Of a stretch of DNA of 16,921 bases, positions 3,014 through 9,116 are shown one piece after another. The stretch is from a bacterium (GTDB lineage Bacteria; RBG-13-66-14). The notes beneath the pieces are model-generated. The model saw only the letters and a program-made list of their open reading frames with translations. It was not told where the DNA came from and did no database searches. The position numbers and the translations under genes are program-made. The stretch is from positions 1 through 16,921 of the forward strand of contig DATKYS010000001.1 of assembly GCA_035528375.1 (NCBI GenBank), given 5' to 3'. Position 1 is the stretch's first letter. Every line of letters starts with the position of its first letter.

Positions 3014-4744
3014 TTATCGTTGATTTTCGTTGGCTTTATTAATTTCCTTTGCTTCTTTTAAATCTATCCTAGCTTTATAGCCATGCTTGTTTAGGAGGTG
3101 AAGCAGGTGATTTCCGCTAAGAAGGGTTAGAGGTTTATCCTTGGCAAACTGATAAGAATCAGTACCGTAATCCGAGGTGGAGATAAGAATACCCCTGGAG
3201 GCACCTTCGTTGATCAATGTTCCATATAAATCTCGAACTGCCGATACAGGCACTGTATTTGTGTATCGCTTCGCCTGAATCACGATCTTCCCCCCCCGAA
3301 GGGGATCTGGATCAAAGGCTACAGCATCAACACCACCATCTCGACTTGCTTGTGTAATTTTTACTTCGCCGCCGGACTCTGTAAATTCTTTTTCGAATAG
3401 CTCACGAACAAGGTGTTCGAAATCCTCCCAACTAATACACGCAATATTCATCCCTTCAGATAGCTTTTCTGCAACAGCGTATGATGCGACAAACCGAGAA
3501 TCCTGTTTGTCCATTTGGAGGATTGGATTTACAGGTGTCATGCCGTAGAGTTGAGCACTACCAATCCCTTTGAGCTTTTTAAAGCAGCTTTTTACATCAA
3601 CAGCAGATAAATTTATATCCAAGAAATCCTTTTTAGTTGTCAGTAGTGAAACGATACAACTTGTTTCTTCTTTACCTGTTGATTTATCTATGTAATTTAC
3701 TATACCATTCAATGCCACAGCATCTAAAACGTCGGTTGTGTCAGCGTCAAATAGTTCATGTATCGTTCGCAACAGCATTTGATAGACGACACTATCATAT
3801 AATTTGTTAATATCCTGTTCCTTTAATAATACTTCTTGAATTTCGTCTTTGGTCTTTATATATTTAACCTCTTTTAAACTCGGTATATCAGAAGGGGAGG
3901 GTAATTGCATATCCACAATTAACTGACGATTTTCAGCATTGTATAGAAGCTCGTGATCAATTGAAATCCAATTGGGATAATTTGACTTAGATATAATAAT
4001 ACTAAAGTATTGTTCTATCGCTTCACGTTCATTATTTTCGTAACTTTTTCTTAGTTGATCTATCTCATTATGTTGTAGTTGTTGTTCTTCTTCATATTTT
4101 CTCTTTTCGTTTTCCCAATCTTCCGTTTTCTTTTTATATCGTTCTGTTGCTTGTTTGTTAGTTTCTGAAACTTTTTGACTTTCTTGTTGCCAGGTATTAA
4201 GTGCAACATCGTATTTTTGCTTTGATTGGTCAAGACGTTTCTTTTTAATTCCGGAGAAGATACGCCCTATAATTCCCAGTTTAGCTTTGTATATGGGGTC
4301 TTTGATATCAGGTTGTACCGGCAGAACTTTAAGTTTAGGCTCGCTTGGTTTTGTTGTCGGAAAGGGTGTAAAATCTTTTAATGAATCCCAATCTATGGAA
4401 TGAGAAGTTTGTAAACTAGTAAGCAGTAGTGTTGTTGCCTTGTTAATTTCTTCTTTAGCAGATTCCGTTTTTTGCCTGACAATTTCAATCTTTTGTTCAA
4501 GACGCATTTTAGCTTCTTGTTTTCTCTGGATTTCTTCCCATTTGGCATTCCACTTGTCCATTAACGCGTTTGCCTTTTCTTCTAGAGCATGTTTATCGTA
4601 ACCTGTCATGAACTTGTACTCATGTAATCCATCATGTTTAACTTCGACGGAGTACTTAATCCTTCCGCTGGTTGAATAAGAACGTCTGCTACTTGTTGTA
4701 GCAAGTTTTGCGAGTGATCTAAGTAATCCGCTACTACGAGTCAT
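3014..4744 (-). CDS. Mrr-type restriction endonuclease-like protein with coiled-coil N-terminal half
   Basis: 576 residues; ATG at 4742-4744 with AAAGGA eight bases upstream and a promoter at 4783-4812. The C-terminal part (about 440-560) is an Mrr-like PD-(D/E)xK nuclease: ISWEDFEHLVRELFEKEF opens the domain, Asp473 lies in RDGGVDAV, and Gln490-Ala-Lys492 is the QAK motif of this fold. Such enzymes cut DNA, often modified foreign DNA (type IV restriction). The front half holds two Lys/Glu/Gln-rich stretches (about 50-100 and 165-245) predicted as coiled coil. A middle domain (about 255-430, containing LYDSVVYQMLLRTIHELFDA) resembles what I remember of stand-alone restriction-endonuclease proteins of this size. 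No methylase or partner is adjacent, as expected for a type IV or solitary defence nuclease. The gene is strikingly AT-rich against GC-rich neighbours on both sides, so it was probably acquired by transfer. Confidence 0.8.
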   Translation of the reverse strand: MTRSSGLLRSLAKLATTSSRRSYSTSGRIKYSVEVKHDGLHEYKFMTGYDKHALEEKANALMDKWNAKWEEIQRKQEAKMRLEQKIEIVRQKTESAKEEINKATTLLLTSLQTSHSIDWDSLKDFTPFPTTKPSEPKLKVLPVQPDIKDPIYKAKLGIIGRIFSGIKKKRLDQSKQKYDVALNTWQQESQKVSETNKQATERYKKKTEDWENEKRKYEEEQQLQHNEIDQLRKSYENNEREAIEQYFSIIISKSNYPNWISIDHELLYNAENRQLIVDMQLPSPSDIPSLKEVKYIKTKDEIQEVLLKEQDINKLYDSVVYQMLLRTIHELFDADTTDVLDAVALNGIVNYIDKSTGKEETSCIVSLLTTKKDFLDINLSAVDVKSCFKKLKGIGSAQLYGMTPVNPILQMDKQDSRFVASYAVAEKLSEGMNIACISWEDFEHLVRELFEKEFTESGGEVKITQASRDGGVDAVAFDPDPLRGGKIVIQAKRYTNTVPVSAVRDLYGTLINEGASRGILISTSDYGTDSYQFAKDKPLTLLSGNHLLHLLNKHGYKARIDLKEAKEINKANENQR

Positions 4745-7306: not shown

Positions 7307-7861
7307 TCACCTTGTGATAACCACCCGGCGGGTGATGGCGCCGGCGTCGGTGGCGAGGCGCACGAGGTACACGCCGGGTGGAAGCGTCGAGGTGTCGTAG
7401 GCGAATTCGTGGCGGCCGGGGGCGGTGGGGACGGTCACGGAGGATTCCACGAGCCGGCCCGAGAGGTCGTAGAGCGAGAGCTCTACGTTTTTCGTACCCT
7501 CCGGGAGGAAGTAGCTCAAGGTCACCTGGTCCGTCGCCGGGCATGGGTAGGGAGCGCAGAAGGTTAGCTTGGCGGCGTCTGGTCCCGGCCAGGCGGCTTC
7601 CACGGGGCCGAAGCGACGGACGGAGCCGCCGGGGAGCACGGCTTCGAGGGTGTAGAGGTGGGTTACGTTCGGCTCGGCATCGCGGTCGAGGTAGCGGTAG
7701 AGAGCGTCGCCGGAGAGGTTGACCAGGCGCTCCCCGTCACGCTCCAGGCGCCAATTTGAGCCGACCAAGTCGCCTTCCTCACGCCAGGAGAGGAGGATGC
7801 CATTGACATCGGTGTTGGCCTTTAAACCAGGCTCATCGGCGGCGAAGCCGTCAAGGGTGTA
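7307..7861 (-). pseudogene. 3' remnant of a secreted protein gene with C-terminal sorting domain
   Basis: The frame is open from a TAG stop at 7862-7864 to the stop at 7307, about 184 codons. No signal peptide or proper start exists; a TTG at 7766-7768 would give 153 residues and has no convincing ribosome binding site. Residues about 1-85 look like a fibronectin-III-like domain (LKANTDVNGILLSWREEGD to HLYTLEAVLPGG). The last 80 residues (APYPCPATDQVTLSYFLPEG, VELSLYDLSGRLV, LPPGVYLVRLATDAG) form the beta-sandwich used as a T9SS type A or FlgD-like C-terminal sorting domain, normally the tail of a much longer secreted protein. GC content drops sharply right where the frame breaks, so the 5' part was replaced by or lost to the AT-rich island. 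No 5' half is seen elsewhere in the window. Confidence 0.75.
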
Positions 7862-7868
7862 CTACTGG

Positions 7869-8770
7869 TCACAGAGATCGGGGTCTGTGGCCCAAACAAA
7901 TGGCACATGTGCAACTAAGTGTAGTGAAATGCCTGACACCTACTACTACACCGTCTTTTCGGTCAGCTCTAGAAAAGATGAAATTAAATAAAAAGGATTC
8001 CCCATTTTCAAGATAACGACGGAGAGCATATCCGCATAGATCGGCTACCTGCACCATGCTTGTAAGTTGGCTATCAACAAATAACGGAGTTTCAATAATA
8101 TGACTTAAGGCTGTCCACCTTGTGCCTGTTTTGTAGAATTTCTTCATAAGCTCTGTATGCTTTTTAGCAACAGTCTCATTATTATCATGGATTAATAAAC
8201 CATAACTGGCAACTCCAAAACTCTTGGAAATTATGGATAAATACTGTTCAAAACGTGAAACGATCTGATCGAATGCCTGTTCATCAATAGAATAGGCGGA
8301 TTTGGAAGGGTCGAAATGGACTTTATCTATACATTCAGCAAATAGGCGGGCAAATTCCCATTTGGAAATACATTCAGCTAACTCAGTTATGAGATTCCGG
8401 CGTTCAGTATATGATAAATGAATATATGGTTCGGTTTTTTTGTTATTCTTTTTCGTCTGCCTGTATAGTTTTGGATTATTTGCCCGTTGAAGTCTCAGTA
8501 ATTCTGTTGTTCGTTTAGATTCAACAGCTCTTCTGCGTTCATCATAAGTAAGCTGTTCAAAATCTGGTATATGAGTTTGCTCAAAGTATGGACGGAGAAT
8601 CCACGCAACATGAATCTCTTGTTCTACATAATATTTTTTCTTTATTATTCCTATTTCACGTTCACAATCCCGCCAATACCAGATAGGAATTGATAATCCG
8701 GCGAGAATAAAATGGAAGTATTCCCTGGAGTTTGAGGTGTGCCTGATTCGTCAATGTAGCAAAGATACAT
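7869..8770 (-). pseudogene. DUF3800 family gene with a single-base frameshift
   Basis: ATG at 8768-8770 follows AGGTGG by five bases and starts MYLCYIDESGTPQTPGNTS, the hallmark DESG start of DUF3800 proteins. The frame then slips near 8714-8717 (one base missing in ACTTCCATTTT, where the family has Ser-His) and resumes as HFILAGLSIPIWYWRDCERE. It stays open without a stop for about 280 codons through RLFAECIDKVHFDPSKSAYS, YGLLIHDNNETVAKKHTELM, FVDSQLTSMVQVADLCGYAL and VGVRHFTTLSCTCAICLGH to TGA at 7869-7871, the normal family end. Total is about 300 residues, full length. The family is predicted to be nuclease-like (I recall an RNase H-type fold); its biochemistry is poorly known. Composition is AT-rich, and a structured RNA leader with its own promoter lies upstream. 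Everything but one base is intact, so an assembly or sequencing indel is possible; otherwise it is a recent pseudogene. Confidence 0.85.
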
Positions 8771-8787
8771 ACAACCACCTAAAAAAA

Positions 8788-8848
8788 GCGACTGGCTTCA
8801 GGGCTTTAAGCCCTTTTAAGAGACGCTTAGCGACTCTTGCCAGACACA
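8788..8848 (-). ncRNA. Three-stem structured RNA leader upstream of the DUF3800 gene
   Basis: Read on the minus strand, the RNA would begin near 8848, right after the promoter, and fold into a compact three-way junction. P1 pairs 8847-8845 with 8790-8788 and CTGGC (8843-8839) with GCCAG (8796-8792), with a T-T mismatch between. P2 is AAGAG-T-CGC (8838-8830), loop TAA, GCG-T-CTCTT (8826-8818), again with one T-T mismatch. P3 is AGGGCT (8814-8809), loop TAA, AGCCCT (8805-8800). Linkers are AAA and GAA. Seven Ts follow at 8787-8781, so P1 plus the U-run also resembles an intrinsic terminator. Then come AGGTGG (8780-8775) and the ATG at 8770. The leader is thus almost all structure. RNA motifs named DUF3800-I to -XI have been reported upstream of such genes; I cannot say which class, if any, this is. 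Confidence 0.7.
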
Positions 8849-8854
8849 GTTAAT

Positions 8855-8883
8855 ATTATAGAGCCTAGATGAAAGAAAATCAA
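8855..8883 (-). promoter_or_regulatory. Promoter of the DUF3800 RNA leader and gene
   Basis: On the minus strand TTGATT (8878-8883), a 17-base spacer and a perfect TATAAT (8855-8860). The expected start, near 8848, coincides with the first paired base of the structured RNA. Confidence 0.7.
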
Positions 8884-8951
8884 GGAAAAACGAAAATATC
8901 TCACAATTATCATAATATCAATGCGTTAGATTTATCAGCCTTGCTTTGTCT

Positions 8952-9092
8952 TCAGGGTTTATTAAGATGTCTGTATGATCCGATATACAGCGCATCGCCC
9001 AAGCTTCGCACTCCATTGCCTCCAAGATTCAATACATGTGTGTAGATCGTTGTCTTGTTTGCGTCATTGTGTCCTGGGTGATCCTGGATCAT
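8952..9092 (-). pseudogene. C-terminal remnant of an integron-type tyrosine recombinase (IntI-like)
   Basis: In one minus-strand frame from 9092, MIQDHPGHNDANKTTIYTH can be read; after a shift at about 9019-9023 (extra AT in CACATGTATTG) it continues VLNLGGNGVRSLGDAL and ends at TGA 8952-8954. Integron integrases end in VQ(D/E)LLGH-x-D-x(3)-T-x-IYTHVL-x-x-GG-x-GVRSPLDAL, so the match covers the last catalytic His and Tyr region and the family-specific tail. The usual LLGH reads HPGH, the frame is broken, and nothing upstream of the motif survives before the neighbouring gene's stop at 9117. It is inactive. It marks the right edge of the AT-rich island and suggests how that DNA arrived. Confidence 0.75.
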
Positions 9093-9116
9093 TAGTCTGC
9101 TGATAGAATCGGCCGC

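Follow-up and report, generated by a model that had tools for sequence, protein, structure and literature searches.

A conserved three-way-junction RNA preceding DUF3800 genes, a candidate partner of an RNase HII-like protein

A compact RNA with a three-way junction occupies the leader of a DUF3800 gene on the minus strand of the window, the 16,921-nucleotide stretch of bacterial DNA analysed here. Sequence comparison gives strong support both to the RNA as a family and to its transcript unit, and the presence of the RNA beside genes, together with solitary copies in phages, suggests that the RNA is the partner, and perhaps the antidote, of a nuclease used in phage-host conflict. The order on the minus strand is promoter, 7 bases, three-way-junction RNA, T7, AGGTGG and the ATG of the DUF3800 gene, confirming the arrangement of fold, U7 run, ribosome binding site and gene described in the original prediction. 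The features of the locus are:

8855-8883, minus strand: sigma-70 promoter TTGATT-17-TATAAT (-35 at 8883-8878, -10 at 8860-8855), in a position conserved among homologous loci
8788-8847, minus strand: three-way-junction RNA (P1, P2, P3), recognized by its fold, by covariance model R1 (70.9 bits) and by covariation
8781-8787, minus strand: T7 run, predicted termination site, kept in 40 of 42 loci (at least 5 T within the first 7 bases)
8775-8780, minus strand: ribosome binding site AGGTGG, from the sequence, not part of the RNA fold
7869-8770, minus strand: DUF3800 gene (PF12686), frameshifted, ATG at 8770-8768, with homologues up to 67% identical
7860-9100 (ends approximate), no strand: AT-rich island with the entire cassette inside, 37-47% GC against about 66%

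Stem P1 consists of 3 bp, a T.T mismatch and 5 bp, with its outer end at 8847/8788; P2 of AAGAG/CTCTT (5 bp), a T.T mismatch and CGC/GCG (3 bp), with a TAA loop; and P3 of AGGGCT/AGCCCT (6 bp), also with a TAA loop. The fold as first drawn was reproduced. The minimum free energy of the RNA (8788-8847, minus strand) was -29.2 kcal/mol (z -4.3) and none of 200 shuffled sequences folded equally well; the opposite strand folded worse (-22.4, z -2.6). Sense copies scored 58-82 bits with the covariance model, against at most about 21 bits for antisense. The conserved core is GCGUCUGG...GAGUCGC..GCGUCUC...CCAGUCGC, and the genome from which the window comes contains a single copy of the RNA. P1 and P2 contain the same duplex module (GCGUCU/AGUCGC), oriented away from the junction, and both were changed together in locus L058; the repetition of the module suggests a binding site with two-fold symmetry, suited to a dimer.

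No Rfam model matched the RNA at the gathering threshold, and up to E 10 only a spurious nematode snoRNA was retrieved. The proposed Rfam check for DUF3800 motifs was thus run, and the RNA belongs to none of the Rfam DUF3800 families. Because no Rfam DUF3800 model matches, the RNA is, by sequence, a DUF3800-associated family separate from those of the Rfam 15 models, the comparison being with Rfam. It shares with the Rfam motifs (DUF3800-I, -VI, -VII, -IX and others) the character of a structured RNA adjoining a DUF3800 gene, but differs in its conserved core and in its pairing with a DUF3800 subclade of its own.

A profile built from DUF3800 proteins, blind to the leader, recovered 42 loci from one-genome-per-species contigs and 6 from viral contigs. 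The RNA was present in 46 of these 48 loci, which cover at least 10 phyla (with loci in Chloroflexota, Coprothermobacterota, Pseudomonadota, Planctomycetota, Riflebacteria, Bacteroidota, Elusimicrobiota, Spirochaetota, Desulfobacterota, Acidobacteriota and Omnitrophota), in support of the RNA-protein unit put forward in the original prediction and of horizontal spread. The exceptions were L046, in which a transposase gene has replaced the 5' part and the RNA is missing, and L047 (48% identical), whose three-way junction (z -5.8) has diverged and keeps every stem fully paired. All 38 gene-bearing genomes held exactly one RNA copy, always at the gene. The closest named relative, 58% identical, was the DUF3800 gene of a Leptospira weilii plasmid; its leader carries the same RNA with bases changed yet paired and with the U-run absent. 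Single-sequence protein scans of the genome and viral collections found nothing, the alignment-based scan being the one that succeeded, and blastn of the leader against plasmids returned the Leptospira record only. Weak RNA-model matches in relatives (L065-L067, E 0.03-0.04) were inspected and found unrelated, and L012 and L221 were chance matches. Carriage on mobile DNA, also proposed earlier, was supported indirectly by the AT-rich island, the patchy distribution and the occurrence on plasmids and in prophages; no recurring mobility gene was adjacent, and the 107 ORFs beside homologous loci contained no recurrent family, mobility and defence neighbours included.

In the 42 leaders, 94.5% of helix cells pair, changes on both sides were found in 12 of 20 pairs, and all three stems were supported. 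Double-changed cells numbered 57, whereas shuffles gave 13.8 ± 4.4 (0/500), and the signal collapsed in slid controls. The stems therefore covary; leaders that are unrelated among homologues or fail to covary, the contrary outcome named beforehand, were looked for and did not turn up. Among other changes, two loci have A-U for G-C at the outermost P1 pair, five Bacteroidota show this exchange at the seventh base, and in L058 C-G replaces U-A in P1 and P2 alike. Covariation held after realignment with 12 new bacterial and several viral copies. The U.U mismatches were constant within the main clade and were U-G, C-G or U-A in the divergent L150, L208, L039 and L047; because they become pairs in these copies, these positions seem to call for a pair-like geometry and not a gap. 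Mean identity was 71% for the RNA versus 33% for the 60 nt upstream, and RNA distances were correlated with protein distances (Mantel rho 0.48, 0/2000 permutations).

In 76% of the 42 loci (9% in shuffles), the best sigma-70 promoter has a -10 element that begins 10-15 nt ahead of the RNA, which places the transcription start approximately at the first base of P1. At the other end, at least 5 T occur in the 7 bases after the RNA in 40 of the 42 loci, over a background of 5-8%; both exceptions are from Leptospira, and the viral L098 copy is also devoid of a U-run. The distance from RNA to ATG is free, from 14 to 130 nt (112-130 nt in L033 and L050), and in L033 the RNA is accompanied by an additional terminator. 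Since the ends are fixed and the spacer free, a small RNA released by termination fits these data and a leader masking the ribosome binding site does not. A transcript of about 68 nt bounded by promoter and T-run is predicted, and the discrete small RNA, termination at the U-run and read-through into the gene suggested originally are supported by the fixed position of promoter and T-run at the RNA ends. A U-run behind a branched, U.U-containing stem may terminate poorly.

The window protein matched PF12686 with 38.4 bits (Pfam gathering cut-off 21) and is a member of this family; DUF3800 was its only Pfam match, with none of ToxN, AbiQ, TenpN or CptN type. The frame is broken, which the original prediction had missed: the MYLCYIDESGTPQTPGNTS frame runs to about 8714, one base is missing after codon 18 (near 8714-8717) and before HFILAGLS..., and the open frame resumes at 8714. 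This frameshift may be a real mutation or an assembly error, both being possible. The structure was predicted for the intact homologue L016 (AF2, pLDDT 92.7). VIA, applied to this model, gave an RNase HII/H2 match with Z 11.1 over 164 residues (rmsd 3.6), its top matches all being RNase HII/H2/H3 (Z 8-11), and Foldseek ranked RNase H2 first with modest E-values. D7 and E8 (YIDESG motif), D196 and D244 are conserved at 97-100%, a C-terminal H/C cluster is also kept, and the four acids were assigned to the RNase HII site from their order and the secondary structure around them. The DUF3800 protein is thus predicted to have an RNase HII-like fold with a D-E-D-D acidic set. It has in common with RNase HII and RNase H2 the predicted fold and an N-terminal D-E-x-G followed by two conserved Asp, and differs from them by additional helices inserted at residues ~46-136 and by a C-terminal tail rich in H and C. 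DUF3800 was noted previously as RNase H-like and ncRNA-linked, and a Cas12a2 branch was linked to it (PMC10910872). The window protein had no match in the PADLOC defence library; a related plasmid DUF3800 protein gave a weak match to the candidate PDC-M04A in defence libraries.

An RNA-led search of 1,239 genomes from four phyla added 12 loci, seven with a full-length gene, four with a broken gene and one, the chromosomal L204, with no gene but with promoter and U-run retained. In the viral L099 and L101 the RNA is followed by only the first ~28 codons of the gene. Some breakage of genes next to intact RNAs is to be expected, because the gene offers a 15-fold larger target, and some of the breaks may be assembly errors. 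Viral contigs contained two distinct solitary RNAs, L143 and L150/L171. The former adjoins a tRNA-like sequence and phage replication genes (UvsX-like, DnaB-like); the latter has TTGACG-17-TATTAT upstream and T6 downstream, in a phage that also carries genes for an endolysin and a tail. No DUF3800 was found in the entire records of either, records that may be fragments. P1 of L150 is preserved through a compensating change, and phage copies with compensated stems are, at the sequence level, a stronger point than copies with broken genes.

The P2 hairpin pattern was found in 106 stretches of viral contigs, most single matches being roughly as many as expected by chance for a pattern with 15 fixed bases. 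Tandem P2-type hairpins (GAGUCGC NNA GCGUCU, with a U.U mismatch), the second one terminator-like, were observed in L100 (4024-4100, plus strand) and L102 (reverse complement, 3900-3990), phage contigs with no DUF3800 found nearby; possible explanations are a related decoy or a terminator tip of a common kind. A 38-nt viral sequence (L161, 5772-5809, minus strand; 38 bits) has P1 and P2 with both U.U and is missing P3, possibly a minimal mimic or a chance match.

To our knowledge, no function has been established for the DUF3800 RNA motifs since their discovery. The 2.6-Mb genome of the window (G000) has six DUF3800 genes with at least three different RNA families. One of these loci (L006) matched Rfam DUF3800-VI with 66.5 bits and shows a three-way junction followed by T6, a Shine-Dalgarno sequence and ATG, although model R1 gave no match there; in the Pseudomonas phage Marin, DUF3800-VI is followed by a GC-rich terminator hairpin and then the gene. 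DUF3800-VI is thus similar to the present RNA in having a three-way junction before a T-run or a terminator hairpin. In the same genome, a DUF3800-VII RNA (L226, 1031-1120, minus strand; 74 bits) is convergent with its DUF3800 gene, in a non-leader position. Rfam types DUF3800-VII as 'Gene; sRNA' and DUF3800-VI as Cis-reg. Small enterobacterial plasmids (L008, L015, L217, L218, L219) have a three-way junction, without a match in Rfam, then a strong terminator hairpin and a 230-aa DUF3800 gene, and are a convenient laboratory model. To judge from these sequences, the order RNA, terminator, gene is a theme reached by different means across DUF3800 loci.

A similar order is known from type III toxin-antitoxin (TA) loci, with one promoter, the RNA first, a Rho-independent terminator and the nuclease gene expressed by read-through (PMC5086642), and phages evade ToxIN by expressing pseudo-ToxI (PMC3475682). 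The present cassette shares with type III systems (ToxIN, AbiQ, TenpIN, CptIN), here at the sequence level, the upstream RNA, the single promoter and the terminator between, as well as RNA look-alikes in phages. On the other hand, the type III antitoxin is a tandem repeat and the toxin ToxN-like, whereas the DUF3800 RNA is one unit per locus and genome and its protein RNase HII-like. The cassette falls outside the type III definition by its lack of tandem repeats and its different protein, and may by analogy work likewise. In AbiF/RCd22, a short terminated RNA that contains Rfam motif RF03085 acts by binding the protein made by read-through, which it neutralises (PMC12373285). That motif, too, was a structured RNA first found beside a gene, and was later shown to be a functional ncRNA in AbiF; AbiF differs in its HEPN/Cas13-related protein, the present one being RNase HII-like, and in two abiF motifs per RNA, where a single three-way junction is found here. 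Racrs are phage RNA anti-CRISPRs, solitary units that mimic CRISPR repeats (PMC10651486); the phage copies found here are likewise solitary RNAs that may mimic the partner RNA of a host system, and resemble the DUF3800 RNA instead of CRISPR repeats. The idea of a guide, one of the roles offered originally, was not borne out, as the RNA begins at the transcription start, ends at the U-run and, the P3 stem apart, has no segment that varies from locus to locus. An RNA-guided nuclease of OMEGA/IscB/TnpB type was rejected, since no such single-stranded segment lies between promoter start and U-run.

In the mechanism that we favour, the promoter would fire at the first base of P1, most transcripts would stop at the U-run and release the ~68-nt RNA, and a minority would read through to give the DUF3800 protein. 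The released RNA, in excess over the protein, would bind it and restrain the nuclease, and the gene-less phage copies would be RNA decoys that neutralise the protein of the host, a role like that of pseudo-ToxI towards ToxIN. The mode of action would be like that of type III TA and AbiF antitoxins, the differences being the fold of the toxin and an RNA of one unit without repeats. This model is favoured because the layout matches that of type III TA and AbiF and because phages use pseudo-ToxI and Racrs. An RNA-restrained defence nuclease is preferred to a metabolite switch because intact genes come with the RNA and the RNA is sometimes gene-less, also in phages. Binding of the RNA to the DUF3800 protein is likely, and inhibition rather than activation is a matter of judgement. 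Taken together, that the released RNA binds and restrains a nuclease itself made by read-through, an antitoxin role reached by analogy, has in our estimate about an even chance of being correct; against it are the Leptospira loci and L098 without U-run, the lack of tandem repeats and the lack of recurrent defence neighbours. With somewhat less confidence, the cassette may represent a new RNA-antitoxin/nuclease class, with an RNase HII-like toxin, a single three-way-junction antitoxin, mostly self-terminating, and phage copies as counter-defence.

A cis-regulatory leader would be an attenuator without function once released, the fraction of read-through being set in response to the DUF3800 protein (autoregulation) or to a small ligand. 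It would explain why the RNA is directly upstream wherever the gene is intact, its terminator-like end and its highly conserved, riboswitch-like core, and the related DUF3800-VI is typed Cis-reg by Rfam. However, the RNA starts at the transcription start and therefore leaves no upstream antiterminator strand, and no conserved antiterminator giving a riboswitch-type alternative structure was found in the leaders. The sole built-in alternative, two hairpins formed by re-pairing of the near-identical P1 and P2 strands (GCGUCU/AGUCGC), was not favoured, being on average 9.3 kcal/mol worse and still ending at the U-run. Gene-less copies retain promoter and U-run, and DUF3800-VII, an sRNA gene in Rfam, is convergent to its gene in this same genome. 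A cis-regulatory leader is considered rather unlikely, but in its autoregulated form it is one of two serious rivals of the favoured model. The other, quite unlikely too, is an RNP effector, with an RNA that serves the nuclease as a structural cofactor or scaffold and activates rather than restrains it. The one-to-one pairing of RNA and gene, the correlation of their distances, the two near-identical duplex modules, which suit a two-site protein, and the link of DUF3800 to the Cas12a2 branch (PMC10910872) are all in its favour, but gene-less RNAs would be useless, a cofactor needs no terminator before its gene, and a variable guide segment is absent. The twice-repeated palindromic strands and the horizontal spread would also suit a DNA-level element (operator, cruciform or transposon end) that merely resembles an RNA. 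This is very improbable in view of G-U pairs in more than 20 helix cells, the difference between sense and antisense scores (58-82 against at most 21 bits), the one-sided T-run and a promoter oriented to transcribe the RNA. A chance fold without function is practically negligible, as the fold is conserved and covaries across 42 distinct leaders, and the alignments refute it.

The family offers a function for DUF3800 RNAs with a clean architecture of fixed start, fixed end, one nuclease-fold partner and gene-less phage copies. If the restraining role is true and other DUF3800 motifs act in the same way, this would account at one stroke for a large set of orphan RNA families.

Beside the cassette, positions 7307-7860 (minus strand) contain an apparent truncated host gene with a C-terminal sorting-type domain that abuts it; the N-terminal part of this gene is absent across the other side of the island. 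A second AT-rich island of the window (3014-4744, minus strand) carries an Mrr-type restriction endonuclease gene (PF04471, E 5e-29), another likely defence or mobile gene, adjoining a housekeeping RNase R-like gene.
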